Made by a program: the position numbers and the translations under genes. DNA of 64,000 nucleotides from Nocardioidaceae bacterium. Its GTDB lineage: Bacteria > Actinomycetota > Actinomycetes > Propionibacteriales > Nocardioidaceae. Below, piece after piece: positions 13,443 through 30,718 of the stretch. The notes below the pieces were generated by a model. It saw nothing but the letters and a program-made list of their open reading frames with translations. It was not told the DNA's origin and made no database searches. The stretch covers positions 124,001-188,000 of the forward strand of contig JAGIBL010000001.1 of assembly GCA_017744365.1 (NCBI GenBank). The letters run 5' to 3'. How positions within the stretch are numbered: position 1 is the first letter of the stretch; every line of letters begins with the position of its first letter.

Positions 13443-13446
13443 ATGA

Positions 13447-13461
13447 TTGTGACAACGGAAT
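13447..13461. promoter_or_regulatory. Candidate polyamine-regulon operator upstream of potD
   Basis: The palindrome TTGTGACAA (13447-13455) overlaps TGACAACGGAAT (13450-13461). The same 10-base core TGACAACGGA occurs again at 20500 in the control region of the aminotransferase/aldehyde dehydrogenase pair. Two copies in the two control regions of one inferred pathway suggest a common regulator site. Confidence 0.45.
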
Positions 13462-13522
13462 CCCTTGTCGATGGCCGATTCTCATGTCACGATGCGCCCA
13501 TCGTGTGAGGGAGGTCTCTTTC

Positions 13523-14692
13523 GTGCCAGGTGATTCTCGTATCGGCCGCAGGACCATCCTGAAGGGGGCCGCCGGGGCTGTCTTCGGGCTGGGCAGCGTG
13601 GCCGTGCTCCCCGTCTTCGGACAGGGGGGCAAGAAGCAGGACCCGGCGCAGTGCCGGGCGGACGACGAGTCGGCGCGGGACAAGCGCCTGGTCATCTCGA
13701 ACTGGCCGGAGTACCTCGACGAGGACGACGGCAAGAACCTCTCGACATTGCACCTGTTCGAGAAGAAGACCGGCATCAAGGTCTCCTACACCGACGACGT
13801 CAACGACAACATCGAGTTCTTCGGCAAGGTCAAGAACCAGCTCGGCTCCTGCCAATCCTCGAAGCGGGACATGTTCATGCTCACCGACTGGATGGCCGCC
13901 CGGATGATCCAGGTCGGCTGGATCCAGGAGCTGGACAAGACCAAGGTGCCGAACCTGCACGCGAACCTGATCGACTCGCTCGCGCACGTCGGTTGGGACC
14001 CGAACCGGGAGTACTCGGCCCCGTGGCAGAGCGGCCTGACCGGCATCGCCTACAACAAGAAGAAGGTCAAGGAGGTCCGCACCTTCGAGGAGCTGCTCAC
14101 CCGGCCGGACCTGCGTGGGCGGATCTCGCTGCTCACCGAGATGCGCGACACGATGGGCCTCATCATGCTCATCGACGGCACCGACCCGTCCAGGTTCACC
14201 CAGGCCCAGTGGGACAAGGCGCTGGAGCGGCTGCGCAAGGCCCGGCATGACGGCCAGGTGCGCGCCTTCACCGGCAACGAGTACATCCAGGACCTGGCCG
14301 CCGGCAACGTCGTGGCCTGCGAGGCCTGGTCCGGCGACGTGGCCAACGCCGGCAACGACGACCTGGTCTTCGTGCCTCCCGAGGAGGGCATGATGATCTG
14401 GGCCGACAACATGCTGATCCCCAACCTCGCCACCCACACGGCGAACGCGGAACGGTGGATCGACTACTACTACGACCCCGAGGTCGCGGCGAAGCTCGCC
14501 GACTACAACCAGTACATCTGTCCGGTCAAGGGCGCCCAGCAAGCCATGGAGAAGATCGACCCGGACAACGTCGACAACGAGCTCATCTTCCCGACCGAGA
14601 AGACCCTCTCGGTCACGCACTCGTTCATGGCCCTCTCGGAGGACCAGATCCGCAGCTACGAAGGAGACTTTGCCGATGTCACAGGCGGCTAA
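13523..14692 (+). CDS. potD: Spermidine/putrescine ABC transporter substrate-binding protein (PotD-like)
   Basis: 389-aa extracytoplasmic solute-binding protein for polyamines. The N-terminus carries a twin-arginine signal (RIGRRTILKGAAGAVFG, Arg9-Arg10) rather than a lipobox. The mature part has VISNWPEYLDEDDGKNL and the type-II periplasmic fold hallmarks MLTDWMAARMIQ, PWQSGLTGIAYNKK and GNVVACEAWSGDV. I chose GTG 13523 because GAGGGAGGT lies 7-8 bases upstream and the signal then begins near the start. The ATG at 13484 would add 13 atypical residues. It is the first gene of potDABC-oxidoreductase, and its end overlaps potA by 17 bases. Confidence 0.93.
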   Translation: MPGDSRIGRRTILKGAAGAVFGLGSVAVLPVFGQGGKKQDPAQCRADDESARDKRLVISNWPEYLDEDDGKNLSTLHLFEKKTGIKVSYTDDVNDNIEFFGKVKNQLGSCQSSKRDMFMLTDWMAARMIQVGWIQELDKTKVPNLHANLIDSLAHVGWDPNREYSAPWQSGLTGIAYNKKKVKEVRTFEELLTRPDLRGRISLLTEMRDTMGLIMLIDGTDPSRFTQAQWDKALERLRKARHDGQVRAFTGNEYIQDLAAGNVVACEAWSGDVANAGNDDLVFVPPEEGMMIWADNMLIPNLATHTANAERWIDYYYDPEVAAKLADYNQYICPVKGAQQAMEKIDPDNVDNELIFPTEKTLSVTHSFMALSEDQIRSYEGDFADVTGG

Positions 14693-15821
14693 CGGACAGC
14701 GGGCCGACGGATCGCGCAGCCTGCGGCTGAGCAAGCTCACCAAGGAGTTCGCCGCGTTCACCGCGGTGAAGTCCCTGGACCTCGAGGTGCCCGCGGGCTC
14801 GTTCTTCGCGCTGCTCGGACCCTCGGGCTGCGGGAAGACCACCACGCTCCGGATGGTGGCCGGGCTGGAGACGCCGACCTCGGGCAGCATCCACCTCGGC
14901 GACCTGGACGTCACCTACGAGAAGCCGTACCGGAGGCCGGTGAACACCGTCTTCCAGAACTACGCGCTCTTCCCACACCTCGACATCTACGAGAACGTCG
15001 CGTTCGGGCTACGCCGTCGTGGCGGCAAGGAGGTCGACCGGCAGGTGCGCGAGATGCTCGACCTGGTCGAGCTCACCACCCAGGCCCGCAAGAAGCCGCC
15101 GCAGCTCTCGGGTGGCCAGCAGCAACGGGTCGCTCTCGCCCGGGCGCTCATCAACCGGCCCGACGTGCTCCTGCTCGACGAGCCGCTCGGTGCCCTGGAC
15201 CTCAAGCTGCGCCGCTCGATGCAGCTGGAGATCAAGCGGATCCAGACCGAGGTCGGCCTCACCTTCGTGCACGTCACGCACGACCAGGAGGAGGCGATGA
15301 CGATGGCCGACACCATCGCGGTGATGAACGCCGGCGTCATCGAGCAGATGGGGTCCCCGGACGAGCTCTACGAGAACCCGCGGACGACCTTCGTCGCCAA
15401 CTTCCTCGGACAGTCCAACCTGATCGCCGGCACCATCGTCGGCCGGGATGGTGACGTGGTGAAGGTCGACATGGAGGGCACCGTCGTCTCGATCCCAGCC
15501 GAGCGTGCTCATGCCGACGCCGGGAAGGGCTGGGTCGGGATCCGCCCGGAGAAGGTGCTGATCGCCCCCGCCGGCGAGCCGATCAACGCGCCGGGCAACC
15601 ACATGACGGGCGGGGTCGTCACCGACGTCAGCTTCGTGGGCGTCTCCACGCAGTACCTGGTGCGGATGCCGTGGGGCCAGGAGCTGATGGTCTTCGAGCA
15701 GAACACCGGCCACCGCGCGATGCTCGCGCCCGGTACGCACGTCGACGTCTCCTGGCGCCCCGAGTTCGCGTTCCTGCTCGACGCCAGCCAGGACGTCAAC
15801 GCCGGCATCGAGGAGGCCTGA
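14676..15821 (+). CDS. potA: Polyamine ABC transporter ATP-binding protein PotA
   Basis: 381-aa ATPase energising the polyamine importer. An N-terminal ABC domain has Walker [11 protein letters not shown]-loop [10 protein letters not shown], signature LSGGQQQR, Walker [13 protein letters not shown] and the switch His in [11 protein letters not shown]-terminal TOBE domain (about 270-375, [30 protein letters not shown]) follows. The ATG at 14676 is preceded at nine bases by AAGGAG inside the potD 3' end, which fixes the start. The stop shares one base with the potB start (TGATG). Confidence 0.95.
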
Positions 15822-16720
15822 TGGCCGCGGTCGAGACCAGCGCACCGCCGGGGCCCACCACCCCGGCACAGCCGGGGCGTCGCAAGCTCACCGGCTACTG
15901 GCTGTTGCTGCCTGGCGCGCTCTGGCTCGGGGTCTTCTTCGTGATCCCGTTCTACTCGCTGCTGGCCACGAGCCTGTACGACCCGAAGGGGTCCGTGCTC
16001 GGCGGGTACGACGTCACCTTCCACCTCGCGAACTTCGTCGACGCCATCCGCGACAACGCCGACGTGCTGGTCCGGTCGCTCTGGTACGCGGGGCTGGCGA
16101 CTCTGTTCTGCCTGCTGCTCGGCTACGTGCTGGCCTACGCGATTGCGTTCAAGGCGGGCCGTTGGCGCAACCTGCTGCTGGTGCTGGTGATCGCGCCGTT
16201 CTTCACCAGCTTCCTGGTGCGCACGCTGTCCTGGAAGCTCATCCTTGCCGACGACGGCTTCGTGGTGAACACGCTGCAGACCCTGCACCTGATGGGTGAC
16301 AACGACCGGCTGCTGGCCACGCCGGTCGCGGTGATCGCCGGCCTGACCTACAACTTCCTGCCGTTCATGGTGCTGCCGCTCTACGCCAGCCTGGAGAAGA
16401 TCGACCACCGGCTGATCGAGGCGGCCGGCGACCTCTACGCCTCGCCGGTGCGGGCGTGGTTCAAGGTGACCTGGCCGCTCTCGCTGCCCGGCGTGGTGGC
16501 CGGCACGCTGCTCACCTTCATCCCGGCCGCGGGCGACTACATCAACGCCTCGCTGCTGGGCAGCCCCAACCAGCGGATGGTCGGCAACGTGATCCAGAAC
16601 CTCTTCTCGGCCACCGGTGACTACGCGGCCGCCGGTGCGCTCTCGGTGATCCTGTTGACGATCATCATCGGCCTGGTGCTGATCTACGTCCGTACGGCGG
16701 GGACGGAGGACCTGGTATGA
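15821..16720 (+). CDS. potB: Polyamine ABC transporter permease PotB
   Basis: 299-aa inner-membrane permease. After a Pro-rich cytosolic N-terminus it has about six transmembrane helices, starting LTGYWLLLPGALWLGVFFVIP. The EAA loop that docks on PotA is EAAGDLYASPVRAWFKVTWPLSLPG. It overlaps potA by one base and potC by four (ATGA), so the subunits are translationally coupled. It forms a heterodimer with PotC. Confidence 0.93.
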   Translation: MAAVETSAPPGPTTPAQPGRRKLTGYWLLLPGALWLGVFFVIPFYSLLATSLYDPKGSVLGGYDVTFHLANFVDAIRDNADVLVRSLWYAGLATLFCLLLGYVLAYAIAFKAGRWRNLLLVLVIAPFFTSFLVRTLSWKLILADDGFVVNTLQTLHLMGDNDRLLATPVAVIAGLTYNFLPFMVLPLYASLEKIDHRLIEAAGDLYASPVRAWFKVTWPLSLPGVVAGTLLTFIPAAGDYINASLLGSPNQRMVGNVIQNLFSATGDYAAAGALSVILLTIIIGLVLIYVRTAGTEDLV

Positions 16721-17538
16721 CCGGCCTCGGACGTCTCCGGCTGTGGGTGGGCGACCACCTCATCATGCTGCTCGGCCTGCTCGTGCTCGTGTACATGTTC
16801 GTGCCGATCGCGGTCGTCGTGATGATGAGCTTCAACGACAACTCCAAGTCCCGCAACGTCTACAAGTTCCAGAGCTTCACCTGGGACAACTGGACCAACC
16901 CGTGCAAGCCGAGCGGGATGTGCCACGACGTGGTGGTCAGCATCGAGATCGGCCTGCTCGCCACCGTGGCGGCGACGATCCTGGGCACGCTGGCCGCGTT
17001 CGCGATGGTGCGGCACCAGTTCGTGGGTCGCTCGGTGGCGAACCTGGTGGTGTTCCTGCCGATGGCCACCCCCGAGATCGTCATGGGTTCCTCGCTGCTG
17101 TCCCTCTTCGTGGTGGCGCCGATCGTGCCGCTGGGCTTCTGGACGATCTTCATCGCGCACGTGATGTTCTGCATCTCGTTCGTGATCGTCACCGTGAAGG
17201 CGCGTCTCTCCGGTCTCGACCAGAACCTCGAGCAGGCGGCGATGGACCTCTACGCGACCGAGTCGCAGACGTTCTGGCGGGTCACCTTCCCACTGGTGCT
17301 GCCGGGCATCCTGGCCGCGGCGCTGCTGAGCTTCTCGCTCTCCTTCGACGACTTCATCATCACCAACCTGAACGCCGGCCAGACGGTCACCTTCCCGATG
17401 TTCGTCTGGGGCTCCGCGCAGCGCGGCGTGCCGATGCAGGTCAACGTGGTGGGCACAGTGATGTTCCTGGTCTCGATCGCGATCGTCCTCGGCGGCGAGC
17501 TGAACAGCCGCCGGCGGGCGCGCGCTCTCGCGTCGTGA
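16717..17538 (+). CDS. potC: Polyamine ABC transporter permease PotC
   Basis: 273-aa permease partner of PotB with about six membrane helices, beginning HLIMLLGLLVLVYMFVPIAVVV. The EAA loop is EQAAMDLYATESQTFWRVTFPLVLPG, and FSLSFDDFIITNL is typical of PotC. Its stop overlaps the GTG of the following FAD oxidoreductase (GTGA). Uptake and oxidation are therefore encoded on one transcript. Confidence 0.93.
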   Translation: MTGLGRLRLWVGDHLIMLLGLLVLVYMFVPIAVVVMMSFNDNSKSRNVYKFQSFTWDNWTNPCKPSGMCHDVVVSIEIGLLATVAATILGTLAAFAMVRHQFVGRSVANLVVFLPMATPEIVMGSSLLSLFVVAPIVPLGFWTIFIAHVMFCISFVIVTVKARLSGLDQNLEQAAMDLYATESQTFWRVTFPLVLPGILAAALLSFSLSFDDFIITNLNAGQTVTFPMFVWGSAQRGVPMQVNVVGTVMFLVSIAIVLGGELNSRRRARALAS

Positions 17539-18932
17539 CGCGCGCTCTGGCCGAGGCCCGTGCGGTTCCGTACTGGCTCGAGGACCCGGCTCGCCCGGAG
17601 CCGCTGGCGCCCCTGACCGGTGCGGCGCAGGCCGACCTGGTCGTGGTGGGCGGCGGCTACCTCGGGCTGTGGACAGCGCTGCTGGCGGTCACCCGCGAGC
17701 CCGGACGCGACGTGCTGCTGGTGGAGGGGGAGACCTGCGGGCACGCGGCCAGCGGGCGCAACGGCGGCTTCTGCGAGGCCAGCCTCACCCACGGCTTCGG
17801 CAACGGCCTGTCCCGCTGGCCCGAGGAGCTCGGCACGCTGCTGCGGCTGGGCCGGGAGAACCTGGACGCGATCGAGGCCGCGGTCGCCGAGCACGGCATC
17901 GACTGCGACTTCCTGCGCTCGGGCGCGCTCAGCGTGGCCACCAGGACCGACCAGCTGGCCGACCTCGCCGACGAGCACGCGCTGGCGGCGTCGTACGGGG
18001 AGAAGCTGGAGCTGCTCGACGCCGACCAGGTGCGCGCCCGGGTGGACTCACCGACGTACCTCGGGGCGGTGCACGACCCGGAGTCCGCGGTGATCGAGCC
18101 GGCCCGGCTGGCGTGGGGACTGCGGGCGGCCTGCCTGCGCGCGGGGGTGCGGATCCACGAGCACACCCGCGTGGACGCCGTACGTCGTGAGGGCGGCCGG
18201 CGTGAGGGCGGCCGGATCGCGCTGCGGACCACCGGCGGCACCGTCACGGCCCGCCAGGTCGTGCTCGCCACCAACGCGTTCCGCCCGCTGCTGCGCCGGC
18301 TGCGGCTGCGCGTGGTGCCGGTCTACGACTACGCGCTGATGACCGAGCCGCTCTCGCCCGAGCAGCGCGCCGCGATCGGCTGGAGCGGCCGCGAGGGGAT
18401 CTCGGACCGGACCAACCAGTTCCACTACTACCGGACCACCCGCGACGGGCGGATCCTGTGGGGCGGGTACGACGCGATCTACCACTACGGCAGCGGACAG
18501 CGGCCGTCGTACGAGCAGCGTCCGGAGACCTTCGAGGTGCTGGCCCGCAACTTCGCGACGACCTTCCCGCAGCTCGAGGGCCTGCGGTTCACGCACTCCT
18601 GGGGCGGCGTGATCGACACCTGCACCCGGTTCACCGCGTTCCACGGCACCGCGTACGACGACAACCTGGCCTACGCGCTCGGCTTCACCGGACTCGGCGT
18701 CGGGGCGACGCGGTTCGCCGCCGAGGTCGCCCTGGACCAGCTGGCCGGCCTGGACACCGAGCGCACCGCGCTGCGGATGGTGCGCGAGAAGCCGCTGCCG
18801 TTCCCGCCCGAGCCGTTCCGCTGGGCCGGCGTGCAGGCCACCCGCTGGTCCCTGGCCCGCGCCGACCGCACCGGCAAGGAGAACCTCTGGCTCAAGACCA
18901 TGGACCGACTGGGCCTGGGCTTCGACTCCTGA
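17535..18932 (+). CDS. FAD-dependent amine oxidoreductase (PuuB/DAO-like), second copy
   Basis: 465-aa flavoenzyme of the DAO family: LVVVGGGYLGLWTALLA (about 35-51) binds ADP-FAD, GHAASGRNGGFCEASLTHG follows, and LGFTGLGVGATRFAAEVALDQL is the C-terminal FAD contact. Directly coupled to potC (GTGA), it is the likely first oxidation step for imported polyamine or a derivative. It is a paralogue of the protein at 11542. An in-phase perfect 15-bp tandem duplication at 18186-18215 yields the peptide REGGRREGGR, an apparent recent slippage insertion between domains. Whether it acts on free polyamine, glutamylated polyamine or another amine cannot be decided from sequence. Confidence 0.85.
   Translation: MTRALAEARAVPYWLEDPARPEPLAPLTGAAQADLVVVGGGYLGLWTALLAVTREPGRDVLLVEGETCGHAASGRNGGFCEASLTHGFGNGLSRWPEELGTLLRLGRENLDAIEAAVAEHGIDCDFLRSGALSVATRTDQLADLADEHALAASYGEKLELLDADQVRARVDSPTYLGAVHDPESAVIEPARLAWGLRAACLRAGVRIHEHTRVDAVRREGGRREGGRIALRTTGGTVTARQVVLATNAFRPLLRRLRLRVVPVYDYALMTEPLSPEQRAAIGWSGREGISDRTNQFHYYRTTRDGRILWGGYDAIYHYGSGQRPSYEQRPETFEVLARNFATTFPQLEGLRFTHSWGGVIDTCTRFTAFHGTAYDDNLAYALGFTGLGVGATRFAAEVALDQLAGLDTERTALRMVREKPLPFPPEPFRWAGVQATRWSLARADRTGKENLWLKTMDRLGLGFDS
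18186..18215 (+). repeat. Perfect 15-bp tandem duplication inside the oxidoreductase gene
   Basis: CGTGAGGGCGGCCGG is present twice back to back (18186-18200 and 18201-18215). It is in frame and adds five residues, consistent with replication slippage. Confidence 0.8.
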
Positions 18933-20561: not shown

Positions 20562-22004
20562 ATGGCCCAGACCTCTTTCTCCAACATCGTCAACGGCGAG
20601 CGCGTGGACGCCGCCTCCGGCGCGACGTACGACGTGATCGACCCGACCACCGGCGAGGTGTACGCGACCGCGCCCGCGAGCTCGGCCGAGGACGTGGACC
20701 GCGCGTACGGCGCCGCCGCGGCCGCCTTCGAGACCTGGGGGCGCACCACCCCGAAGGAGCGCAGCGAGGCGCTGCTCAAGATCGCCGACGCCATCGACTC
20801 GCGCGCCAAGGAGATCACCGACGTCGAGGTGCGCGACACCGGCAAGCCGCTCGGGCTGACCCTGTCCGAGGAGCTGCCCCCGAGCTCGGACCACTTCCGC
20901 TTCTTCGCCGGGGCGGCCCGGCTGCTCGAGGGCAAGTCGGCGGGGGAGTACCTGCCCGGGCACACCTCCTGGATCCGCCGCGAGCCGATCGGCGTGGTCG
21001 GCCAGGTGACCCCGTGGAACTACCCGCTGATGATGATGATCTGGAAGATCGCACCGGCGCTCGCGGCCGGCAACACCATCGTGCTCAAGCCGAGCGACAC
21101 CACGCCCGCCTCGTCGGTCCTGCTCGCCGAGATCTGCCAGGAGTTCCTGCCGCCGGGCGTGCTCAACGTGGTCACCGGCGACCGTGACACCGGCCGTGCG
21201 CTGGTCCAGCACAAGACCCCGCAGCTGGTCGCGATCACCGGCTCCGTCCGCGCGGGCATGGAGGTCGCCGGTGCCGCCGCGACCGACCTCAAGCGGGTGC
21301 ACCTCGAGCTCGGTGGCAAGGCACCGGTGATCGTCTTCGACGACGCCGACGTGGAGGCCGCCGCCGAGGCGATCGCCGGCGCCGGCTACTTCAACGCCGG
21401 CCAGGACTGCACCGCGGCGACCCGGGTGCTCGCCGGACCGCGGGTGCACGACGACTTCGTCGCCGCGCTGGCCGAGCAGGCCCGCAACACCCGGACCGGC
21501 ATGCCCGACGACGAGGACGTGCTCTACGGCCCGCTCAACAACCCCGACCAGCTGGCGCGGGTCAGCGGCATGGTGGACCGGCTGCCCGACCACGCCCAGG
21601 TGCAGGCCGGCGGCGGCAGGGCCAGCGTCGCGGGCGGTGAGAACGGCTACTTCTACGAGCCCACCGTGCTCTCCGGGCTGCGCCAGGACGACGAGCAGAT
21701 CCAGAGCGAGATCTTCGGCCCGGTCATCACCGTGCAGCGGTTCTCCGACGAGGCCGAGGCGCTGCGCTGGGCCAACGGGGTCGAGTACGGGCTGTCCTCG
21801 AGCGTGTGGACCAAGGACCACGCCCGGGCGCTGCGGATGAGCCGCGACCTCGACTTCGGCGTCGTCTGGATCAACACGCACATCCCGTTCATCTCCGAGA
21901 TGCCGCACGGCGGGTTCAAGCACAGCGGCTACGGCAAGGACCTGTCGATGTACGGCCTGGAGGACTACACGAGGATCAAGCACGTGATGAGCTACATCGG
22001 ATGA
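20562..22004 (+). CDS. Aldehyde dehydrogenase, gamma-aminobutyraldehyde dehydrogenase type
   Basis: 480-aa NAD(P)-dependent ALDH superfamily enzyme. Motifs are PWNYPLMMMIWKIAPALAAGN (cofactor and oxyanion Asn), HLELGGKAPVIVFDDADV (general-base Glu) and FNAGQDCTAATRV (catalytic Cys). NTHIPFISEMPHGGFKHSGYGKD gives the aminobutyraldehyde/PuuC-PatD flavour. It would oxidise 4-aminobutanal to GABA, the step after the divergent aminotransferase. The final codons overlap the next start as ATGA. Substrate assignment combines family resemblance with pathway context. Confidence 0.88.
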   Translation: MAQTSFSNIVNGERVDAASGATYDVIDPTTGEVYATAPASSAEDVDRAYGAAAAAFETWGRTTPKERSEALLKIADAIDSRAKEITDVEVRDTGKPLGLTLSEELPPSSDHFRFFAGAARLLEGKSAGEYLPGHTSWIRREPIGVVGQVTPWNYPLMMMIWKIAPALAAGNTIVLKPSDTTPASSVLLAEICQEFLPPGVLNVVTGDRDTGRALVQHKTPQLVAITGSVRAGMEVAGAAATDLKRVHLELGGKAPVIVFDDADVEAAAEAIAGAGYFNAGQDCTAATRVLAGPRVHDDFVAALAEQARNTRTGMPDDEDVLYGPLNNPDQLARVSGMVDRLPDHAQVQAGGGRASVAGGENGYFYEPTVLSGLRQDDEQIQSEIFGPVITVQRFSDEAEALRWANGVEYGLSSSVWTKDHARALRMSRDLDFGVVWINTHIPFISEMPHGGFKHSGYGKDLSMYGLEDYTRIKHVMSYIG

Positions 22005-23224
22005 GGATCCTCCTGGTCGGCGCCGGCGGCGTCGGGTCCGCCTTCACGGCGATCGCCAGGCGCCGCGACTTCTTCGAGCTGTGCGTGGTCGCCGACCACG
22101 ACCTGGCTCGGGCGGAGAAGGCGGTCGCGGACGTGGCCGACGAGCGCTTCGTCGCCGCCCAGGTGGACGCCTCCGACGCGGTCTCGGTGGCCGCGCTCGC
22201 CCAGCACCATGGCGTCACCCACGTCATGAACGCGGTCGACCCGCGCTTCGTGATGCCGATCTTCGACGGGGCCCTGGTGGCCGGCGCCGACTACCTGGAC
22301 ATGGCGATGTCGCTGTCCCAGCCGCACCCGGAGGTCCCGTACGACGAGACCTGGGTCAAGCTCGGCGACGAGCAGCTCGCCGTGGCCGGGGAGTGGGAGA
22401 AGGCCGGCCGGCTGGCGCTGGTCGGGATCGGCGTGGAGCCCGGGCTCTCCGACGTCTTCGCCCGCTACGCCGCCGACCACCTCTTCTCCGAGATCGAGGA
22501 GCTGAACACGCGCGATGGCTCGAACCTGGTCGTCGACGGGTACGAGTTCGCACCGTCGTTCTCGATCTGGACGACGATCGAGGAGTGCCTCAACCCGCCG
22601 GTGATCTGGGAGAGGGACCGGGGCTGGTTCACCACCGAGCCGTTCTCCGAGCCGGAGGTCTTCGACTTCCCCGAGGGCATCGGCCCGGTCGAGTGCGTCA
22701 ACGTCGAGCACGAGGAGGTGCTGCTGATGCCTCGCTGGGTCGAGGCGAAGCGGGCCACCTTCAAGTACGGCCTCGGTGCCGAGTTCATCGACGTGCTCAG
22801 GACACTGCACAAGCTCGGCCTGGACCGCACCGAGAAGGTGCGCGTCGGCGGCGTGGAGGTCAGCCCGCGCGACGTGGTCGCCGCCTGCCTGCCCAACCCG
22901 GCCGAGCTGGGCCCGCGGATGACCGGGAAGACCTGCGCGGGGCTCTGGGTGACCGGCACCGGCCTCGACGGGAAGCCCCGCTCGACGTACCTGTACCACG
23001 TGGTCGACAACGCCTGGTCGATGGCCGAGTACGGCCACCAGTGCGTGGTCTGGCAGACCGCGGTCAACCCGGTGGTGGCGCTGGAGCTGCTCGCGAACGG
23101 CACCTGGTCCGGGGCCGGCGTGCTCGGCCCGGAGGCGTTCGACGCGGTCCCGTTCCTGGACCTGCTGACCGCCTACGGCTCCCCGTGGGCCATCGAGGAG
23201 GTCGGCTCCCAGGAGCTCACTTGA
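22001..23224 (+). CDS. Saccharopine dehydrogenase/carboxynorspermidine-dehydrogenase-like protein
   Basis: 407-aa oxidoreductase with an N-terminal Rossmann motif MRILLVGAGGVGSAF, then HVMNAVDPRFVMPIFDGALVAGADYLDMAMS and GIGVEPGLSDVFARYAADHLF. This is the family of saccharopine and carboxynorspermidine dehydrogenases, which act on secondary amines formed between an aldehyde and an amino acid. It is coupled to the aldehyde dehydrogenase by ATGA, so it probably processes a related amino aldehyde, but its exact reaction is unknown. Its last eight bases overlap the convergent PqqD-like gene. Confidence 0.8.
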   Translation: MRILLVGAGGVGSAFTAIARRRDFFELCVVADHDLARAEKAVADVADERFVAAQVDASDAVSVAALAQHHGVTHVMNAVDPRFVMPIFDGALVAGADYLDMAMSLSQPHPEVPYDETWVKLGDEQLAVAGEWEKAGRLALVGIGVEPGLSDVFARYAADHLFSEIEELNTRDGSNLVVDGYEFAPSFSIWTTIEECLNPPVIWERDRGWFTTEPFSEPEVFDFPEGIGPVECVNVEHEEVLLMPRWVEAKRATFKYGLGAEFIDVLRTLHKLGLDRTEKVRVGGVEVSPRDVVAACLPNPAELGPRMTGKTCAGLWVTGTGLDGKPRSTYLYHVVDNAWSMAEYGHQCVVWQTAVNPVVALELLANGTWSGAGVLGPEAFDAVPFLDLLTAYGSPWAIEEVGSQELT

Positions 23225-23480
23225 CCCGGACGATGTCCTTGTCGAGCAGCTGCCTCAGGAACGCCTCGATGTCGGCCCGGCAGCCCTCGGCGGTGACGTC
23301 GTACTCCGCGGCCACCAGCGTGCACAGCTCGTCGAGCGTACGGGGCGTCTCCAGGTGGTGCCACAGCGATGCGGCGACGTCCTTGAGACCGTAGTACTCG
23401 CCCTGGTCCTGGCCCATCATCACCAGCTCGCCGTCCATCTCGACGGCACGCAGGTCGGGTCGGCGGACGTACTCGGTCAT
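23217..23480 (-). CDS. PqqD-like RiPP recognition protein (lasso B1 type)
   Basis: 87-aa stand-alone PqqD/RRE protein. It contains YVRRPDLRAVEMDGELVMM, then GEYYGLKDVAASLWHHL and CRADIEAFLRQLLDKDIV: three strands followed by three helices that bind a RiPP leader and deliver it to processing enzymes. In lasso peptide systems this is the B1 half of the split leader protease and recognises the YxxP motif, which is present in the precursor at 24939-25067. AGGAG lies five bases before the ATG, and the start overlaps the kinase stop (ATGA). It is the last gene of the minus-strand A-B2-K-B1 set. Confidence 0.85.
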   Translation of the reverse strand: MTEYVRRPDLRAVEMDGELVMMGQDQGEYYGLKDVAASLWHHLETPRTLDELCTLVAAEYDVTAEGCRADIEAFLRQLLDKDIVRVK

Positions 23481-24403
23481 CGGCTCTCCTGGGCGGGACG
23501 CAGGTCGCGGGCGAGGTCGGCCAGGATCGCATCGGCCGTCGCCTCCGCGGTCATCGTCTCAGCAGGGCGCAGCACCCGTCGTACCCGGGCCCGCTCCACC
23601 AGCCGGGCGCACTGCTGCAGGTGCGCGGCGACCGCGGCCGGCCCGTGCACCAGCTCGTGCCGGTAGGTGTGCTCGTGCAGCAGGGCGAAGGTGACCGCGC
23701 CGCGGGCCTCCTCCACGCGCAGGTCCCCGCCCGCGTGCCGCTCGAGCACGAAGACCCAGCGCAGCGGCAGCGGAGCGAGCGCGCCTCGTTCCAGCGGGAC
23801 CTGGAACTTGGGGTGGTCGTCGTGGATGCGCTCCAGGTCGCCGGTGCCGCGCCCGAGCCGGTCCAGCGCGTCGTCCCAGAGCTTGATCCTGGGGTATCCG
23901 GGCAGCGCCAGCCCGTCGGCGTCGACCGGGACCACGTCGTCGCTGAGCACGTCGTGACCGCGACGGTGCAGCTCGGCGGCCAGGGTCGACTTGCCGGCGC
24001 CGGAGTGGCCGAGCACCACCGCGCACGCCGCGTCGTCGCCGTGGCCGATCCGGAACGCGTTGCCGTGCAGAACCAGGCAGCCGCGCAGCATCATGGTCGC
24101 GCCCATCGCCGAGCCGAGCAGGAACAGCCGGACCGCCTTCGGGTCGGCCTCCGGCAGCGGGTCCACGACGATCTCGGTGGCGGTGGCCCGGTAGCGGCCG
24201 ACCTCGTCGACCTCGACGCCGCACACCTCGCCGTCGCGCCACAGGCCCAGCCCCAGGTCGGTGCCGGGAGGCGGTGCCGGCAGGCCGCCGTACCGGATCA
24301 GGACGTCGGGGACGGCGTCGCCGGCGATCGGCTCGCCGAGGTCGGGCAGCGGGATCTCGCTGCCGAGCACCAGGCCGTAGCAGGAGTACCGGGTCAGGCT
24401 CAC
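23477..24403 (-). CDS. HPr-kinase-like RiPP kinase (PadeK/ThcoK type)
   Basis: 308-aa protein related to the C-terminal domain of HPr kinase. It shows MMLRGCLVLHGNAFRI, a P-loop GHSGAGKST (residues 132-140) and the acidic VLSDDVVPVD (Asp155, Asp156). Homologues in paeninodin-type lasso clusters phosphorylate the C-terminal Ser of the precursor; the precursor here does end in Ser. The first 100 residues are a poorly conserved cap. Both ends overlap neighbours by four bases (GTGA and ATGA). Orphan HprK-like proteins also occur in polysaccharide loci, but the adjacent B1, B2 and precursor genes argue for a RiPP role. Confidence 0.8.
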   Translation of the reverse strand: MSLTRYSCYGLVLGSEIPLPDLGEPIAGDAVPDVLIRYGGLPAPPPGTDLGLGLWRDGEVCGVEVDEVGRYRATATEIVVDPLPEADPKAVRLFLLGSAMGATMMLRGCLVLHGNAFRIGHGDDAACAVVLGHSGAGKSTLAAELHRRGHDVLSDDVVPVDADGLALPGYPRIKLWDDALDRLGRGTGDLERIHDDHPKFQVPLERGALAPLPLRWVFVLERHAGGDLRVEEARGAVTFALLHEHTYRHELVHGPAAVAAHLQQCARLVERARVRRVLRPAETMTAEATADAILADLARDLRPAQESR

Positions 24404-24888
24404 GCGTGCCTGCCCGCCGGGTCCCAGACGAAGGAGGCGACCTCGGTGTAGTCGCGGCCGTCGCCTCCGACGACCGGCGTTCCTCCCGCTGTCACCCAGG
24501 CGTGAGCCGCCAGGCGGTCACCGTCGCGGCGCAGCCCGAAGCTGACCCGGTGCGGGATCTTGCGCAGGCCCAGGAGGATCCGGGCGGTCAGTGCCTGCGG
24601 GTAGCACTCCGAGCGCCACGGGGTGTGCTGCGCGGCGACCTGCACGACCAGGCCGATCCGGTCCGCGCGGGCGCGCTGGACGGGGGTGAGCAAGACGTCG
24701 GGGGAGTCGGACTGCTCGTGCCCGTCGTCACCCCGTGGATCGAAGCCCAGCAGACGTCGTACGACGCGGAACGGCACGCACAGGATGAGCAGGCGGGTGA
24801 GACCCAACAGGGACCAGGCCGCCGCGAGGCGGACCTGGTCCCTGTGTCCGAGTCGGACGAAGCCGGCCACCTTCTCGGAAAGACGCAT
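24400..24888 (-). CDS. Lasso-peptide B2-like leader protease (transglutaminase-like)
   Basis: 162-aa cysteine-protease-fold protein of the lasso B2 family. The catalytic triad appears as Cys95 (SECYPQALTARILL), His129 (LAAHAWVTAGG) and Asp143 or Asp146 (VVGGDGRDYTEV). An N-terminal helical region (LAAAWSLLGLTRLLILCVPFRVVRRLLG) matches the usual B2 extension. With the B1-like protein it should remove the leader after the conserved Thr. I chose the ATG at 24888; a GTG at 24915 would add nine residues without a ribosome-binding site. It lies 50 bases downstream of the precursor gene. Confidence 0.82.
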   Translation of the reverse strand: MRLSEKVAGFVRLGHRDQVRLAAAWSLLGLTRLLILCVPFRVVRRLLGFDPRGDDGHEQSDSPDVLLTPVQRARADRIGLVVQVAAQHTPWRSECYPQALTARILLGLRKIPHRVSFGLRRDGDRLAAHAWVTAGGTPVVGGDGRDYTEVASFVWDPAGRHA

Positions 24889-24938
24889 CGGTGACGGGCC
24901 CCAGGTTGGCACCACGGGTGCCAGAAGGGTTCTGGCCT

Positions 24939-25067
24939 TCAGCTGCCGAGCGGCAGGCCGAGGTGGATGTGGATGTCGGCACCAAGGTTGATGTCGATAT
25001 CACGCGTCGCACGCAGGCTCAGCGACTCGAGCTGAGGTGCGCTGTAGGCCTTCACGGAACCGGTCAT
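24939..25067 (-). CDS. RiPP precursor peptide with lasso-type leader and octad-repeat core
   Basis: Small gene, 42 codons plus stop; AGGAG is seven bases before the ATG. The leader (1-22) carries Tyr8-x-x-Pro11-x-Leu13-Glu-x-Leu16 and Thr21, matching the YxxPxLExL....T pattern bound by B1 proteins of paeninodin-type lasso systems. Cleavage two residues after the conserved Thr would leave a 20-residue core starting at Asp23. The core consists of two imperfect octads, DIDINLGA and DIHIHLGL, plus PLGS. Asp at core position 9 could in principle accept a macrolactam, but the core N-terminus is Asp instead of the usual Gly/Ala/Ser/Cys and no cyclase gene is present. The C-terminal Ser fits the neighbouring kinase. 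Product structure and activity are unknown. Confidence 0.8.
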   Translation of the reverse strand: MTGSVKAYSAPQLESLSLRATRDIDINLGADIHIHLGLPLGS

Positions 25068-25092
25068 GGTGGAGCTCCTGTCGGTAGTTCCC

Positions 25093-25108
25093 TTCTCACA
25101 CCTGAGAA
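25093..25108. promoter_or_regulatory. Palindrome TTCTCA-CACC-TGAGAA upstream of the precursor gene
   Basis: Perfect 6-bp arms around four bases, 26-41 bases upstream of the precursor ATG. This is where a regulator could block or position RNA polymerase. No regulator gene lies within the cluster, so the binding protein is unknown. Confidence 0.45.
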
Positions 25109-25113
25109 CGACC

Positions 25114-25132
25114 CGTCACGAGCGAGGTGACG
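25114..25132. promoter_or_regulatory. Second palindrome CGTCAC-N7-GTGACG in the RiPP divergent region
   Basis: Perfect 6-bp arms separated by seven bases, just beyond the first palindrome in the 177-bp region between the precursor and nucleotidyltransferase genes. Could serve either direction. Confidence 0.4.
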
Positions 25133-25232
25133 GCCGGACCAGGCGATGACGCGAGATTAATCCCGGCTTCATCCCCTTGGTGGCGATCCGCAGAACTTGC
25201 CCGTTCAGGTGCGCCCCGGTGACCGCACTCCC

Positions 25233-25244
25233 TACGCTGCTGGC
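25233..25244 (+). promoter_or_regulatory. Leaderless -10 box for the nucleotidyltransferase gene
   Basis: TACGCT (25233-25238) fits the TANNNT consensus and is followed by exactly six bases and then the GTG at 25245, with no ribosome-binding site. This decides the start. No good -35 was found. Confidence 0.45.
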
Positions 25245-26411
25245 GTGCAACCCTCCCCGGCCGCCACCCGGCACGTCCGCGCGCTGGCCAGGACCGCGCT
25301 GGCGCTCGAGTCCGGGACGGTCGCGCCCGAGGGCCCGCCGCCTCCTCCGACCACCCCGCAAATCGTCCCAGAGCTGCTCTTTTCGGTCACCCGGCACCGG
25401 CTGGTGGACCTGCTGGACAGCCATGCGGACGACCTCCGGCTGCCCGGCGAGCTGGCTGGTCCACTGGCCGACCTGCGCGCCTCGGGGCGCCGGCTGCTCA
25501 TGGTCCAGCTGCTCGAGATCGGCCGTGTCCAGGCCCTGCTGGAGGCCGCCGGGGTGCCCGCGCTGGTCATCAAGGGCCTGCCGCTGGCGGTCCAGACCAC
25601 CGGCGATCCGGCGGCCCGCGGACCGGGCGACATCGACCTGCTGATCCCGCCGGACGCGGTCGAGCGGGTGCACGCGCTGCTGCTCTGCGGAGGCTGGTCG
25701 CCGCGGCCGGACGCGGAGGTGGCGCCGGGGACCTGGGCGTGGCGCCACGTCCAGCGGACCACCTGCGCCCTGCCCTACCTCGGCTCCGCCTCGAACATCG
25801 ACCTGCACTGGCGGCTGGACACGACCCGGGACGCGCTGCCCGGCTTCGAGGAGCTCTGGGACCGGCGCGAGGTGGTCGACCTCGACGGCATCGCGGTGGC
25901 CACCCTGGGTCGCGCCGACCTGCTCGCGCAGACCTGCTTCCACGCCGCCAAGGACCGCTGGCGCTGGCTGCGCAGCCTGGTCGACGTGCACCGGATCGCG
26001 GCGATGCCCGCGTTGCTCGACGTGCCGCTGCGACCGCTCGAGCTGCGCACGCTGGCGATCACCCGGGCCGCGCTCGGGCTGCCGGCCGGAGTCCCGGCCG
26101 GGGTGCTCGCCCAGCTGGACGCGGTCCGGGAGGCTCCCGTACGACGGGCGCTGGCCGACCAGGAGCGGCCGGCACTGAAGAGCCTGGCCACCCCGGGAGT
26201 CGAGAGCGCACTCAACCTGCGCTACCTGGTCACCGCCAGCCACACCCCGCGGGACCTGGCGCGCTCGGTGGTCGCCACCACGCTGCCGGTGAAGATGGTC
26301 GCCGGGGTGCCGTCGCGCACCGCCTGGACCGGGATCCCGGCGACGCTGTGGCGGCGGCTGCGCCGGCTGCGGCAGCGAACGTTCGCCTGGGCGCGGGGAG
26401 GCTCGGCTTGA
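25245..26411 (+). CDS. RiPP-cluster nucleotidyltransferase family protein (PadeN-like)
   Basis: 388-aa member of the uncharacterised nucleotidyltransferase family found in paeninodin-type lasso clusters. The polymerase-beta-like motif is ARGPGDIDLLIP (Asp129, Asp131), preceded by ALVIKGLPLAVQ and followed by NIDLHWRLD, which may supply the third acidic ligand. The rest is helical with Arg-rich segments. The substrate is not established for the family; nucleotide or phosphate transfer to the peptide, or to phosphate added by the kinase, is an inference. The GTG start is chosen from the leaderless box; a TTG at 25197 would add 16 residues. The stop overlaps the ABC gene (TTGA). Confidence 0.78.
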   Translation: MQPSPAATRHVRALARTALALESGTVAPEGPPPPPTTPQIVPELLFSVTRHRLVDLLDSHADDLRLPGELAGPLADLRASGRRLLMVQLLEIGRVQALLEAAGVPALVIKGLPLAVQTTGDPAARGPGDIDLLIPPDAVERVHALLLCGGWSPRPDAEVAPGTWAWRHVQRTTCALPYLGSASNIDLHWRLDTTRDALPGFEELWDRREVVDLDGIAVATLGRADLLAQTCFHAAKDRWRWLRSLVDVHRIAAMPALLDVPLRPLELRTLAITRAALGLPAGVPAGVLAQLDAVREAPVRRALADQERPALKSLATPGVESALNLRYLVTASHTPRDLARSVVATTLPVKMVAGVPSRTAWTGIPATLWRRLRRLRQRTFAWARGGSA

Positions 26412-28057
26412 TCGCGCGGGCGCGGCACTGCCTGGCCCTGATGAGCGCCACCTCGGGCCGCGGCAGGCTGGTCGGCCTGGTCGGGCTGCAGCTGCTGGTC
26501 GCCCTGCTCGAGGGCGCCGGCCTGGTGCTGCTGGTGCCGGTGATCCAGGCGCTCGGCGGGGACAGCCGGCTCTCCCTGCCCGGGCTGGACCTGCACTTCT
26601 CGCTGCCGGTCGCGTTCACCGCGGTGGTCGTGGTGGTGGTGCTGCGCGCGCTCGGCCAGTGGTCCGCGGCGGTACTGGCCACCGACATCCGGTTGGCCAC
26701 CGTGGACCGGCTCCGGCTCGGACTGCTCGACGACCTGTACGCCGCGGACTGGACCTACCTGTCCGGCAAGCGGCGCAGCCACATCGTGCAGCAGCTCACC
26801 ACCGACGTGGAGCGCGCGCACAGTGCCTTCGCGATGGTGCTGCGGCTGCTGGTCGGCGCGCTGGTGCTGGCCGCGACCGGCGCGGTGGCGGTGCTGCTCG
26901 CCCCGGCGATCGGCGGGCTGGCGGTGCTCGCGGTGCTGCTGGTCGCCCTGGTGGCCTCCCGGTCCACGCGCAGCGCCGCGGTGCTCGGCCGGGTGATGAC
27001 CGAGCGGCTGCAGGACTTCGGCGCCGCGCTCTCCGACTCGCTGGCCTCGGCCCGGGTGATGCGCGCGCACGACGCCGCCTCCTCCTGGTCCGCGCTGGTC
27101 GGCACCGAGGCCGCCCGGGTGCGCGAGGTGCGGCGCTCGTACGTCGCCAAGGGCAGCGCCATCTCGGCCGCGCTCGGGGTGGTCGCGGTGCTGGCCGTGC
27201 TCGCGATGATCCTGCTCGGCCGCGAGGCCGGCATGTCCCTGCCCGAGCTGGCCACCCTGGCCGTGGTGGCCACCCGGCTGCTCACCTCGGCGCAGAACCT
27301 GCTCTCCTCCGCGCAGCTGTTCGCCAACGACGTCCCGGCCGTCGAGCGGCTCGAGGAGTTCCACCGCGAGGTGCTGCGGCACCCCGAGTCCTCTCGCGCC
27401 CCGTCGGTCCTCGCGCCCGCGTCCTCGACCTCGGCCCTGGTCGCGCTGCGCGACGTCCGGGTCGGCTACGACGGGGTCGTCGCCCTCGACGGCATCTCGC
27501 TGGAGGTGCCGTCGTACGGGCTGGCGACGGTGGTCGGGCCGAGCGGCTCGGGCAAGAGCACCCTGCTCGACGTGGTGCTCGGCCTGCGCCGCCCGGAGGC
27601 CGGGGAGGTGCTCGTCGACGGCCGGCCGCTGACCGACCTGGCCGGCTGGCGCGCCCGGGTCGGGTACGTGCCGCAGCAGACCGTGCTGGTCCCGGGGACC
27701 GTCTGGCAGAACCTCGCCTGGTCGCTGCAGCCCGGCCGCACCCTGACCGAGGACGAGGCCTGGGACGCCCTGCGCACCGCCGGCCTCGACGACGTCGTAC
27801 GAGCGTTGCCGGGGAGCCTGCAGGCACCCCTGCAGGAAGTGGCCGAGCTGTCCGGGGGAGAGCAGCAGCGGCTCAGCATCGCCCGGGCCCTGGTCCGCCG
27901 CCCCGACCTGCTCATCCTCGACGAGGCCACCAGCGCCCTGGACCGCGACACCGAGGCCCGCGTCCTCGCCAGCCTCCTCGACGGCAGCCGCGCGGTGCTC
28001 ATGGTCACCCACCGGGATCTCGTGGGGTCCGAGGGCGTCGTGCTGCGGCTCGGCTGA
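26408..28057 (+). CDS. ABC exporter (fused permease-ATPase) of the RiPP cluster
   Basis: 549-aa half-transporter. An N-terminal membrane domain of about six helices (LVGLVGLQLLVALLEGAGLVLLVPVIQAL onward) is followed by an ABC ATPase with Walker A VGPSGSGKST, Q-loop YVPQQTVLVPG, signature ELSGGEQQR, Walker B LLILDEATSALD and switch His VTHRD. It has no C39 peptidase domain, consistent with leader removal by B1/B2. The TTG at 26408 overlaps the upstream stop by four bases; an ATG at 26441 is an alternative. It is likely to export and confer immunity to the peptide product, and corresponds to PadeD-like exporters. Confidence 0.85.
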   Translation: MIARARHCLALMSATSGRGRLVGLVGLQLLVALLEGAGLVLLVPVIQALGGDSRLSLPGLDLHFSLPVAFTAVVVVVVLRALGQWSAAVLATDIRLATVDRLRLGLLDDLYAADWTYLSGKRRSHIVQQLTTDVERAHSAFAMVLRLLVGALVLAATGAVAVLLAPAIGGLAVLAVLLVALVASRSTRSAAVLGRVMTERLQDFGAALSDSLASARVMRAHDAASSWSALVGTEAARVREVRRSYVAKGSAISAALGVVAVLAVLAMILLGREAGMSLPELATLAVVATRLLTSAQNLLSSAQLFANDVPAVERLEEFHREVLRHPESSRAPSVLAPASSTSALVALRDVRVGYDGVVALDGISLEVPSYGLATVVGPSGSGKSTLLDVVLGLRRPEAGEVLVDGRPLTDLAGWRARVGYVPQQTVLVPGTVWQNLAWSLQPGRTLTEDEAWDALRTAGLDDVVRALPGSLQAPLQEVAELSGGEQQRLSIARALVRRPDLLILDEATSALDRDTEARVLASLLDGSRAVLMVTHRDLVGSEGVVLRLG

Positions 28058-28144: not shown

Positions 28145-30718
28145 GTGCGTGCGATTCGACGATTCACCGTCCGACCCGTCCTGCCCGAGCCCCTGGCTCC
28201 GCTCCTGGAGCTGGTGACCAACCTGCGCTGGTCCTGGCATCCCGAGACGCAGGATCTGTTCCGCTCGATGGATCCCGAAGCCTGGGAGGCGGCCGGGCGC
28301 GACCCGGTCAAGCTGCTCGGCTCGGTCAGCACCGCGCGGCTCGACGAGCTCGCCGCGGACAAGAAGTTCCTCAAGGCGCTCGAGCTGGCCCACGCCGACC
28401 TGGAGCAGTACCTGACCGGGCCGCGCTGGTACCAGGAGCTGGCCGTCGAGGGCGCCTCGCCGCGGTCGATCGCCTACTTCTCGCCCGAGTACGGGATCAC
28501 CTCGGTGCTGCCGCAGTACTCCGGCGGACTGGGCATCCTGGCCGGCGACCACCTCAAGACGGCCAGCGACCTGGGCATCCCGATCGTCGGGGTCGGCCTG
28601 CTCTACCGGCACGGGTACTTCCGGCAGGCGCTCTCCCGCGAGGGCTGGCAGCAGGAGACCTACCCGGTGCTCGACCCGGACGGCCTGCCGATCACACCGC
28701 TGCGCGAGGCCGACGGCTCGCACGCGCAGGTCTCCCTCGCCGTACCGGGCGATGCGCCGCTGCTCGCGCGCATCTGGGTCGCCCAGGTCGGCCGGGTGCC
28801 GCTGCTGCTGCTCGACTCCGACGTCGAGGGCAACCCCGAGGCGCTGCAGGAGGTGACCGACCGGCTGTACGGCGGCACCGCGGAGCACCGGCTGCTGCAG
28901 GAGCTGCTCCTCGGTGTCGGCGGCGTCCGCGCGCTCCGGGCCTGGTCGCGGATCACCGGCGCCCCCGAGCCGGAGGTCTTCCACACCAACGAGGGCCACG
29001 CCGGTTTCCTCGGCCTCGAGCGCATCCGTGAGCTCAGCGTCGCCGAGGACGGCCCGCACCTGGACTTCGCCGCCGCGCTCGAGGTCACCCGCGCCGGCAC
29101 CGTCTTCACCACGCACACGCCCGTGCCCGCCGGCATCGACCGGTTCCCGCGCGATCTGATCGCGCAGTACTTCGGCTCGACCTCGCCGGTGCCGGGCGTG
29201 GCCGTCGACGACGTGCTCGCACTCGGCGCCGAGGACTTCGAGGGCGGGGACCCGGGCGTGTTCAACATGGCTGTGATGGGGTTCCGGCTCGCGCAGCGCG
29301 CCAACGGCGTCTCGCTGCTGCACGGGCACGTCAGCCGGGAGATGTTCAACGGGCTCTGGCCCGCCTTCGACGAGGCCGAGGTGCCGATCACCTCGATCAC
29401 CAACGGCGTGCACGCGCCGACGTGGGTGGCCCGCGAGGTCTTCGAGGCCGCCGGGCGGCAGGGCGTGGACGTCGACTCCCCGGAGGTGTGGGAGGCGGTC
29501 GACAAGGTGCCCGCCGACGAGCTCTGGTCGACCAAGCGGGCACTGCGCCAGCGGCTCGTCCTCGACGCGCGGGCGCGGCTGCGCAAGTCGTGGATCGGGC
29601 GCGGTGCCGCCCCGGCCGAGCTCGGATGGATCGACTCCGCCCTCGACCCCGACGTGCTCACCATCGGGTTCGCCCGGCGGGTGCCGTCGTACAAACGGCT
29701 GACGCTGATGCTGCACGATCCCGAGCGGCTCAAGCGGATCCTGCTCGACCCGGAACGCCCGGTGCAGCTGGTCATCGCGGGCAAGGCGCACCCGGCCGAC
29801 GACGGCGGCAAGCGGATGATCCAGGAGATCGTCCGGTTCGCCGACGACCCTGAGGTGCGGCACCGGATCGTGTTCCTGCCGAACTACGACATCGCGATGG
29901 CCCAGCCGCTCTACCCGGGCTGCGACGTGTGGCTGAACAACCCGCTGCGGCCCTACGAGGCGTGCGGCACCTCGGGCATGAAGGCCGCCCTCAACGGCGC
30001 CCTCAACCTCTCCATCCTCGACGGCTGGTGGGACGAGTGGTACGACGGCGACAACGGCTGGGCGATCCCGTCCGCCGACGGCGTCGCGGACCACGACGAG
30101 CGCGACCGGATCGAGGCCGAGGCGCTCTACGACCTCATCGAGAACGACGTCGCGCCGCGCTTCTACGACCACGATTCCGACGGCCTCCCCGTTCGCTGGA
30201 TCGAGATGGTCCGGCACACCCTGAAGTCGCTCGGGCCCAAGGTGCTCTCCTCGCGGATGCTGGCCGACTACGTCGATCGGCTCTACCTCCCGGCAGCCGA
30301 CGCGGCGCACGCGATCAACTCCTCGTACGACGGCGCTCGCGCGCTGGCTGCCTTCAAGGAGCGGGTCCGAGCCGGCTGGGAGCACGTCCGGATCGACCAC
30401 GTCGAGTCCGGCGGCGTCTCGGAGACCCCCGAGGTCGGCGCCACCCTGGACGTCCGCGTCTTCGTCTCCCTCGGCTCGCTCTCCGCCTCGGACGTCTCCG
30501 TCGAGCTCGTGCACGGCCGGGTCAAGGGCGAGGACGACCTCCTCGACCCGGTCGCCACCCCACTGTCCCTCGCCGAGTCCTACGAGCCCGGCCGTTACCG
30601 CTTCGAGGGCCGCCTCCTCCTCGACCGCCCCGGCCCCTTCGGCTACACCGTCCGGGTCCTCCCGCGCCACGAGGGGTTGGCCTCGGGGGCCGAACTTGGC
30701 CTGGTCGCGACCGCGTGA
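28145..30718 (+). CDS. glgP: Alpha-glucan phosphorylase GlgP
   Basis: 857-aa PLP-dependent phosphorylase of the bacterial short-type family. It releases glucose 1-phosphate from alpha-1,4 glucans. A DUF3417-type N-terminus (LLELVTNLRWSWHPETQDLF, LYGG) is followed by IAYFSPEYGI, YSGGLGILAGDHLK, VFHTNEGHAGFLGLERI and THTPVPAGIDRF. The PLP-lysine segment is YEACGTSGMKAALNGALN. The family includes enzymes first annotated as glycogen phosphorylase in actinobacteria. It is separated from its catabolic partner glgX only by the inverted-repeat-bounded segment at 30719-31919. Confidence 0.95.
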   Translation: MRAIRRFTVRPVLPEPLAPLLELVTNLRWSWHPETQDLFRSMDPEAWEAAGRDPVKLLGSVSTARLDELAADKKFLKALELAHADLEQYLTGPRWYQELAVEGASPRSIAYFSPEYGITSVLPQYSGGLGILAGDHLKTASDLGIPIVGVGLLYRHGYFRQALSREGWQQETYPVLDPDGLPITPLREADGSHAQVSLAVPGDAPLLARIWVAQVGRVPLLLLDSDVEGNPEALQEVTDRLYGGTAEHRLLQELLLGVGGVRALRAWSRITGAPEPEVFHTNEGHAGFLGLERIRELSVAEDGPHLDFAAALEVTRAGTVFTTHTPVPAGIDRFPRDLIAQYFGSTSPVPGVAVDDVLALGAEDFEGGDPGVFNMAVMGFRLAQRANGVSLLHGHVSREMFNGLWPAFDEAEVPITSITNGVHAPTWVAREVFEAAGRQGVDVDSPEVWEAVDKVPADELWSTKRALRQRLVLDARARLRKSWIGRGAAPAELGWIDSALDPDVLTIGFARRVPSYKRLTLMLHDPERLKRILLDPERPVQLVIAGKAHPADDGGKRMIQEIVRFADDPEVRHRIVFLPNYDIAMAQPLYPGCDVWLNNPLRPYEACGTSGMKAALNGALNLSILDGWWDEWYDGDNGWAIPSADGVADHDERDRIEAEALYDLIENDVAPRFYDHDSDGLPVRWIEMVRHTLKSLGPKVLSSRMLADYVDRLYLPAADAAHAINSSYDGARALAAFKERVRAGWEHVRIDHVESGGVSETPEVGATLDVRVFVSLGSLSASDVSVELVHGRVKGEDDLLDPVATPLSLAESYEPGRYRFEGRLLLDRPGPFGYTVRVLPRHEGLASGAELGLVATA

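Follow-up and report, generated by a model that had tools for sequence, protein, structure and literature searches.

The DNA analysed here is a 64-kb stretch from a member of the Nocardioidaceae (the window). It carries a six-gene cluster (positions 23217-28057) of the kind that makes ribosomally synthesized and post-translationally modified peptides (RiPPs), with A, B2, K and B1 on the minus strand and N and D on the plus strand. This layout, at the positions first given by a reading of the letters alone (hereafter the sequence-only reading), was confirmed by gene coordinates and by Pfam and NCBIfam matches. Both flanks named in that reading, a saccharopine-dehydrogenase-like gene and glgP, were also retrieved. 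We consider the likely product of the cluster to be a linear peptide with a modified C-terminus, made by lasso machinery deprived of its cyclase. The features are as follows.

24939..25067, minus strand: A, precursor peptide of 42 aa (open frame with AGGAG upstream; 29 homologous precursors at other loci)
24400..24915, minus strand: B2, transglutaminase-like cysteine leader peptidase (PF13471, NF033537, Cys104/His138)
23477..24403, minus strand: K, HprK-like peptide kinase (HprK/PEPCK-like fold of the model, BsfK-type motif; PF07475 below cut-off)
23217..23480, minus strand: B1, PqqD-like RiPP recognition element (RRE) (PF05402, matches to solved RREs, Asp70 and Phe74)
25068..25196, no strand: intergenic region separating the divergent genes A and N, presumed from its position to hold both promoters
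25197..26411, plus strand: N, PF14907 nucleotidyltransferase-fold protein (PF14907 match, G-D-x-D motif)
26408..28057, plus strand: D, ABC exporter with membrane and ATPase domains (PF00005; PF00664 weak)
21989-23224, plus strand: saccharopine-dehydrogenase-like gene, flank
28145-30718, plus strand: alpha-glucan phosphorylase gene (glgP), flank

Twenty-three bases separate the end of A from the start of B2, and overlaps of 4 bases each were found between B2 and K, between K and B1, and between N and D, the last starting with TTG at 26408. The start of N is ambiguous, as GTG 25245 may replace TTG 25197: in the structure model of the longer form, pLDDT is below 50 for residues 1-15. Pfam matches above cut-off were obtained for B1 (PF05402, E 1.9e-19), B2 (Transglut_core3 PF13471, E 1.5e-20), N (NTP_transf_5 PF14907, E 1.1e-31) and D (ABC_tran PF00005, E 3.2e-31). 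B2 also matched NCBIfam NF033537, 'lasso peptide biosynthesis B2 protein' (76.9 bits for a cut-off of 33). The match of K to Hpr_kinase_C PF07475 (26.4 bits) stayed below the 33.3-bit cut-off, and A displayed no match in Pfam or NCBIfam.

Conservation was examined in a family sample of one genome per species. A search with K gave matches at 50 places in 48 of 294 genomes. In a tree of 55 K rows, 31 of these places, one per genome, formed a single clade including the window (support 100/98), which split into three genus-level groups. The tree left out L090-L094 (contigs shared with loci that carry G handles), L101-L104 (weak kinase-like matches), L118 (on a contig of 3.4 kb) and K matches below 35 bits. 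A, B2, K and B1 occurred together with a divergent N at 30 of the 31 loci; since arrangement and precursor recur at 29 loci besides the window, the cluster is more than a chance assembly. The exception is L029 (G013, 6373-11033). Its K and B1 are those of the clade, and their neighbours are an additional K, B2, N and, judged by eye, a sulfotransferase-like frame; no precursor was found there. Within the genus of the window, glgP adjoined the cluster at 8/9 other loci and the saccharopine-dehydrogenase-like gene at 7/9, whereas neither neighbour was seen at the 21 loci of the other two groups. The composition of the cluster is thus held in different settings. A close D was found beside 12 of the 30 clusters, the window among them. 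As to additional enzymes, flanking frames of the 21 loci outside the genus were grouped and ten were scanned with Pfam: eight gave no match, one was a short-chain dehydrogenase and one gave a marginal P_proprotein match, these flanks being only partly read because antisense frames of high-GC DNA dominate.

The sequence-only reading had stated that no cyclase lies in the 64 kb and had proposed to extend the search to the whole genome and to homologous loci; the absence held at all three levels. Eleven PF00733 stretches were turned into a profile, which detected no cyclase-like frame in the window, nor at any of the 31 clade loci (0/31, window included), the other 30 being scanned over stretches of 9.2-19.5 kb, some of them ended by contig ends. 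PF00733 gave no match in the window's own genome, scored 100% complete, while the positive control of this search gave matches in 11 of 14 control genomes. A PF00733 cyclase elsewhere is excluded for this genome, so that the distant cyclase entertained earlier as an option falls away here. The same null result means that an asparagine synthetase B of the PF00733 kind was also not found in it; matches occurred in 8 of the 24 genomes of the genus. Throughout the clade, PF00733 was absent genome-wide from 25 of the 31 genomes (G011, one of the 25, is only 75% complete). The other six displayed near full-length genes (G013 and G227, each on a contig other than that of the cluster) or partial matches (G006, G020, G028 and G281, on a different contig or at least 90 kb from the cluster). 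The absence of a cyclase is real and conserved in the clade.

Three of these matches were considered as candidate cyclases of the cluster and rejected. By eye, the G013 gene resembles AsnB, the ordinary asparagine synthetase, and the G020 match resembles QueC. The G227 gene sits in a separate lasso cluster (L083), which carries a K, B1, B2, N and D of its own. Two clusters coexist in genome G227, a cyclase-less one on contig 45 (L063) and a lasso-type one with cyclase on contig 76 (L083). Such coexistence is described for linear polyphosphorylated peptides (LPP) and paeninodin in Bacillota.

For comparison, the family offers 19 further places where K matches more weakly. PF00733 lay within 2 kb on the same contig at 13 of them (G004, G067, G113, G119, G126, G149, G182, G206, G226, G227 contig 76, G231, G274 and G275), indicating that the search detects a cyclase where one exists. 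The six others are the second G013 place and G024, G045, G108, G243 and G279, with weak K matches (E 1.4e-5 to 8e-4); G045 has a PF00733 match 13 kb off. Fisher's exact test of 0/31 versus 13/19 gave p 7.6e-8, a value to be read with the fact that the 31 loci belong to one clade and are not independent. The cyclase label requires three changes on the K tree, and the pattern shows that a single lineage has stably kept the cyclase-less condition, not that the gene was lost repeatedly.

Beyond the family, all 17 K matches at E 1e-60 or better in an order-level sample (391 genomes) fell within Nocardioidaceae. A phylum-level sample (396 genomes) gave 8 further, more distant matches to the K profile at E 1e-20 or better; a cyclase was present in the stretch at four of these loci and absent at three (L116, L117 and L119), and one locus lay on a 3.4-kb contig. 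The three without cyclase (L116, 9299-11323; L117, 4031-6055; L119, 9407-11531) represent a second kind of cyclase-less cluster, from another actinobacterial family, with B1, B2, precursor, K, N and D in one operon and a precursor displaying two Cys and no C-terminal Ser. In their genomes, PF00733 gave weak partial matches only in G380 and G412, and a strong match about 2.7 Mb distant in G488. The K nearest to the clade from outside was that of L095 (Pseudomonas alcaligenes RU38D, 8908-18894), a position not strongly supported (92/77); a cyclase lies about 3 kb away from it.

Precursor A of the window is composed of a predicted leader of 22 residues (YSAPQL motif, Thr(-2)) and a predicted core of 20 residues ending in Ser, the cleavage site being placed according to the lasso Thr(-2) rule. 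Thirty precursors were recovered from the 31 clade loci. All displayed a YxxP leader, with few changes from the consensus YxxPxLExLSLxATx, a conservation that is partly by construction since leader patterns were used to pick them. Tyr was present in all 30; it belonged to one extraction pattern, but a second pattern that allowed Trp yielded no Trp in the clade. Leaders ended in AT, ST, QT or ET plus one residue. Cores were 14-30 residues long, devoid of Cys and Lys, and started with Asp (23), Gly (6) or Glu (1). A typical core in the genus of the window is DIDIGLGIHIPFPPLGS, and a frequent one in the other groups is DIDIDIDITLGLGS. A C-terminal Ser was observed in 30/30 cores and a Gly-Ser end in 28/30, although no search pattern required a Ser end, while core position 3 was Ser in 0/30. 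An acid (Asp or Glu) at core positions 7-9 was absent from 11/30 cores and from 8/9 in the window's genus, where the window itself, with Asp9, is the exception. Among cyclase-bearing loci of the family, cores of L081, L084 and L085 allow a reading with Gly1 plus acids at positions 7-9; those of L083, L086 and L088 were less clear.

Residue conservation in the proteins was read from the rows of the clade loci, of which alignments A1, A2 and A3 contain 26/31 K rows, 11/30 precursors and 13/30 N rows, respectively. B1 matched solved RREs by sequence (9x90, E 1.5e-09; 5v1u, 5e-08; 9x8z, 1.6e-07; 6jx3, 1.8e-04). Two of these, 9x90 (PbaB1) and 9x8z (LppB), were each solved with their own leader according to PMC13381572, where D70 of LppB is described as binding the leader Tyr and N33 as fixing the leader Pro. 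Asp70 of B1 aligned gap-free with LppB D70, and both Asp70 and Phe74 were present in 31/31 clade rows. In four Bacillota rows position 70 was Gln or His, and two of the Bacillota precursors found displayed WxxP. Residue 33, at the place of LppB N33, was Lys or Arg in 31/31 clade rows versus 1/19 others and may be a marker of the clade.

Cys104 and His138 of B2 were conserved in the 29/29 rows that cover them, the L066 row reaching neither site. B2 matched no solved structure; its relatives numbered 106 among 5.8 billion proteins, all with PF13471, and the NCBI names shown for ten of them were 'lasso peptide biosynthesis B2 protein' (eight) and 'hypothetical protein' (two). In K, residues H113, G132, G135, G137, K138, S139, D155 and D156 were invariant in 30 rows and correspond to the BsfK motif described in PMC10368454. 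The best E values of the K model (mean pLDDT 91.5) were 5.3e-07 among PEP carboxykinases and 4.6e-05 among HPr kinases, with moderate TM-scores, and its fold resembles the superfamily expected of an HprK-like kinase. For N, G144-D145-x-D147 was invariant in the 13 aligned rows and present in at least 90% of 30 rows. Sequence searches gave no credible solved structure for N, and the fold search with its model (mean pLDDT 83.6) returned no match at E 0.001, the nearest being LnuA and ANT(2''), with E values from 2.0e-3 upwards, followed by FKRP (E 0.031). FKRP transfers ribitol phosphate.

Gene content, conservation, motifs and the missing cyclase were observed directly, and from them we infer every chemical step of the proposed pathway. 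B1 would bind the YSAPQL motif of the leader, as homology and matching residues suggest. K, helped by B1, would transfer one or more phosphates to the precursor at the hydroxyl of its C-terminal Ser, a site proposed because paeninodin-type kinases act there and because this Ser is conserved. In the review PMC9266682, both PadeK and PsmK are described as phosphorylating the C-terminal Ser, and PsmN as needed for hexoses on that residue. By the lasso leader rule, B2 would cut after the residue that follows Thr(-2), freeing the 20-residue core. The phospho-Ser would receive another group from N, most probably a hexose by analogy with PsmN; this is the least certain step. D would export the product, and no ring would be closed. 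The computed [M+H]+ values for the window core are 2083.12 (linear), 2163.08 (one phosphate) and 2325.14 (phosphate plus hexose). Among the products suggested by the sequence-only reading, the linear phosphorylated peptide was judged the best.

Several observations weigh against such a product. No product of the cluster was seen, and the 31 clade loci count as one lineage, not as independent cases. Asp70 of B1 is not clade-specific, being also found in 13/19 other rows, and 14/30 cores offer K another Ser or Thr. In the core codons of 11 similar precursors, all pairs together displayed 68 nonsynonymous versus 18 synonymous differences, with a median dN/dS of 0.46 for the core (50 of 55 pairs), so that no strong selection is shown. 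Moreover, 19/30 cores have Asp or Glu at positions 7-9 and, with Asp9, the window core by its sequence alone permits a ring. The peptide might accordingly still be cyclised into a lasso or a macrolactam, either by an enzyme outside PF00733 or by a cyclase encoded far from the cluster in some of the genomes. Six cores start with Gly, one of them reading G-I-D-I-D-I-D, and the near full-length PF00733 genes of G013 and G227 would be the candidates for action at a distance. Yet we regard cyclisation as improbable, given that PF00733 is missing from the window's genome and from most clade genomes, that the acceptor is lacking in nearly all cores of the window's genus, and that the two candidate genes are AsnB-like or belong to another cluster, as described above. 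Extremely improbable, in our view, is a degenerate lasso cluster left without any product after the loss of its cyclase. The cyclase is indeed the sole lasso gene missing, and the B2 frames of G012 and G016 each contain one internal TGA within the match. Yet gene order and catalytic motifs are kept over 30 clusters in three genus-level groups and precursors retain their C-terminal Ser; the TGA may fall at the gene end, and the profile still detects the B2 frame in both genomes.

Two other alternatives leave the linear peptide in place and concern its fate. The group that the phospho-Ser receives from N might not be a hexose but a nucleotide, or a phospho-alditol supplied by a CDP donor. The nucleotidyltransferase motif of N and the proximity of its model to the adenylyltransferases LnuA and ANT(2''), and more weakly to FKRP, are in favour of this, and a nucleotidyltransferase role of PsmN is left open in the review PMC9266682. 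Conversely, the fold search remained without match at its threshold, the mass added in pseudomycoidin with PsmN is that of a hexose according to the same review, and deletion of lppN is reported in PMC13381572 to have caused no detectable change in the heterologous host. All in all, we hold such a transfer to be rather unlikely. It is very unlikely that the modified peptide remains unsecreted, either staying in the cell or using the N-derived group for attachment to a polymer of the envelope. This would suit the 18/30 clusters without a close D in the stretch examined, where export is left unexplained by our proposal, and the frequent location of LPP and paeninodin clusters within capsule loci described in PMC13381572; D is present, however, in the window and 11 other clusters, and in the window's genus the cluster adjoins metabolic genes, not a capsule locus. 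A linear, C-terminally modified and probably exported peptide thus remains our preferred product.

The sequence-only reading had called the cluster paeninodin-type, which stands as far as homology of the enzymes is concerned. Common to it and to the paeninodin and pseudomycoidin lasso peptides, as these are presented in PMC9266682 and PMC13381572, are B1, B2, the HprK-like kinase, the nucleotidyltransferase (NTase), the exporter, the C-terminal Ser and Thr(-2). The label fails on other counts: those systems have a macrolactam cyclase and paeninodins a WxxP leader, whereas here no cyclase is found, the leader is YxxP (YSAPQL in the window), cores mostly start with Asp, and K falls into a clade of its own, separate from those Bacillota kinases that were examined. 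In terms of lasso biosynthesis at large, the discrete RRE and the B2 peptidase are present and the PF00733 cyclase is absent. The Bsf lasso cluster of Bradymonas sediminis shares the discrete RRE, B2, an HprK-like kinase with the same motif and an NTase, but has a cyclase, phosphorylates Ser3 and displays Ile(-2), according to PMC10368454.

In the RRE-Finder report (PMC7470986), the discrete lasso RRE model was the best one for almost 8,000 proteins, of which only about 4,000 are found along with peptidase and cyclase, and the orphans were described as possible false positives or as RREs of uncharacterised classes. A cyclase-less B1 like that of the window would fall among such orphans, yet here B2 and a precursor are present. 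If our reading holds, some of these orphans would serve linear, tail-modified peptides, and B1 and B2 genes annotated as 'lasso peptide biosynthesis' would be insufficient by themselves as evidence of a lasso peptide. Taken along with LPP, it would suggest tailoring by kinase and NTase, not the ring, as a recurring pathway core. With five or six genes and cores 14-30 residues long, the system is also small, which would suit it for studying the roles of the phosphate and of the N-derived group.

LPP were described in May 2026 from the lpp cluster of Paenibacillus alginolyticus (PMC13381572). According to that description, their core set comprises an SpI-like peptidase, a discrete RRE, an HprK-like kinase, an NTP transferase and an MsbA-like transporter, without a cyclase; the leader consensus is YxxPxVLxHQxIxFETxxS, the phosphate is carried by core Ser3, and the authors found the family in Bacillota only. 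The present cluster shares with LPP the discrete RRE, the HprK-like kinase, the NTP transferase, the exporter, the YxxP leader, the lack of a cyclase and a predicted linear product. It differs by B2 in place of the SpI-like signal peptidase, by a core position 3 that is never Ser, by leaders with AT-like instead of FETxxS-type ends, and by its occurrence in Actinobacteria. No SpI-like (SipW-type) peptidase was found among the cluster genes, and the nearest TIGR02228 match in the window's genome lies about 154 kb off, below cut-off. The sequence-only reading knew of no described family with this composition. LPP come near to it, which limits that statement, although the peptidase reported for them keeps the two apart; in the mainly open-licence literature, no paper was recognised that describes a B2-containing, cyclase-less cluster of this composition.

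Likened to LPP or to a ring-less paeninodin pathway, the cluster fails a defining feature of each. It may well represent a distinct RiPP class of Nocardioidaceae, a view that we put forward tentatively, in which lasso-type leader removal is combined with modification of a C-terminal Ser and no ring is formed. Its products would be short linear peptides, often with Ile and Asp in alternation. On their C-terminal Ser, K and N would install a cap (hexose, nucleotide or alditol) through a phosphodiester link. The class would parallel LPP with another protease, phosphosite and phylum, and possibly a separate origin. Of the kinds described so far, LPP is the closest, and the cluster is its B2-processed actinobacterial counterpart, not a member of it.

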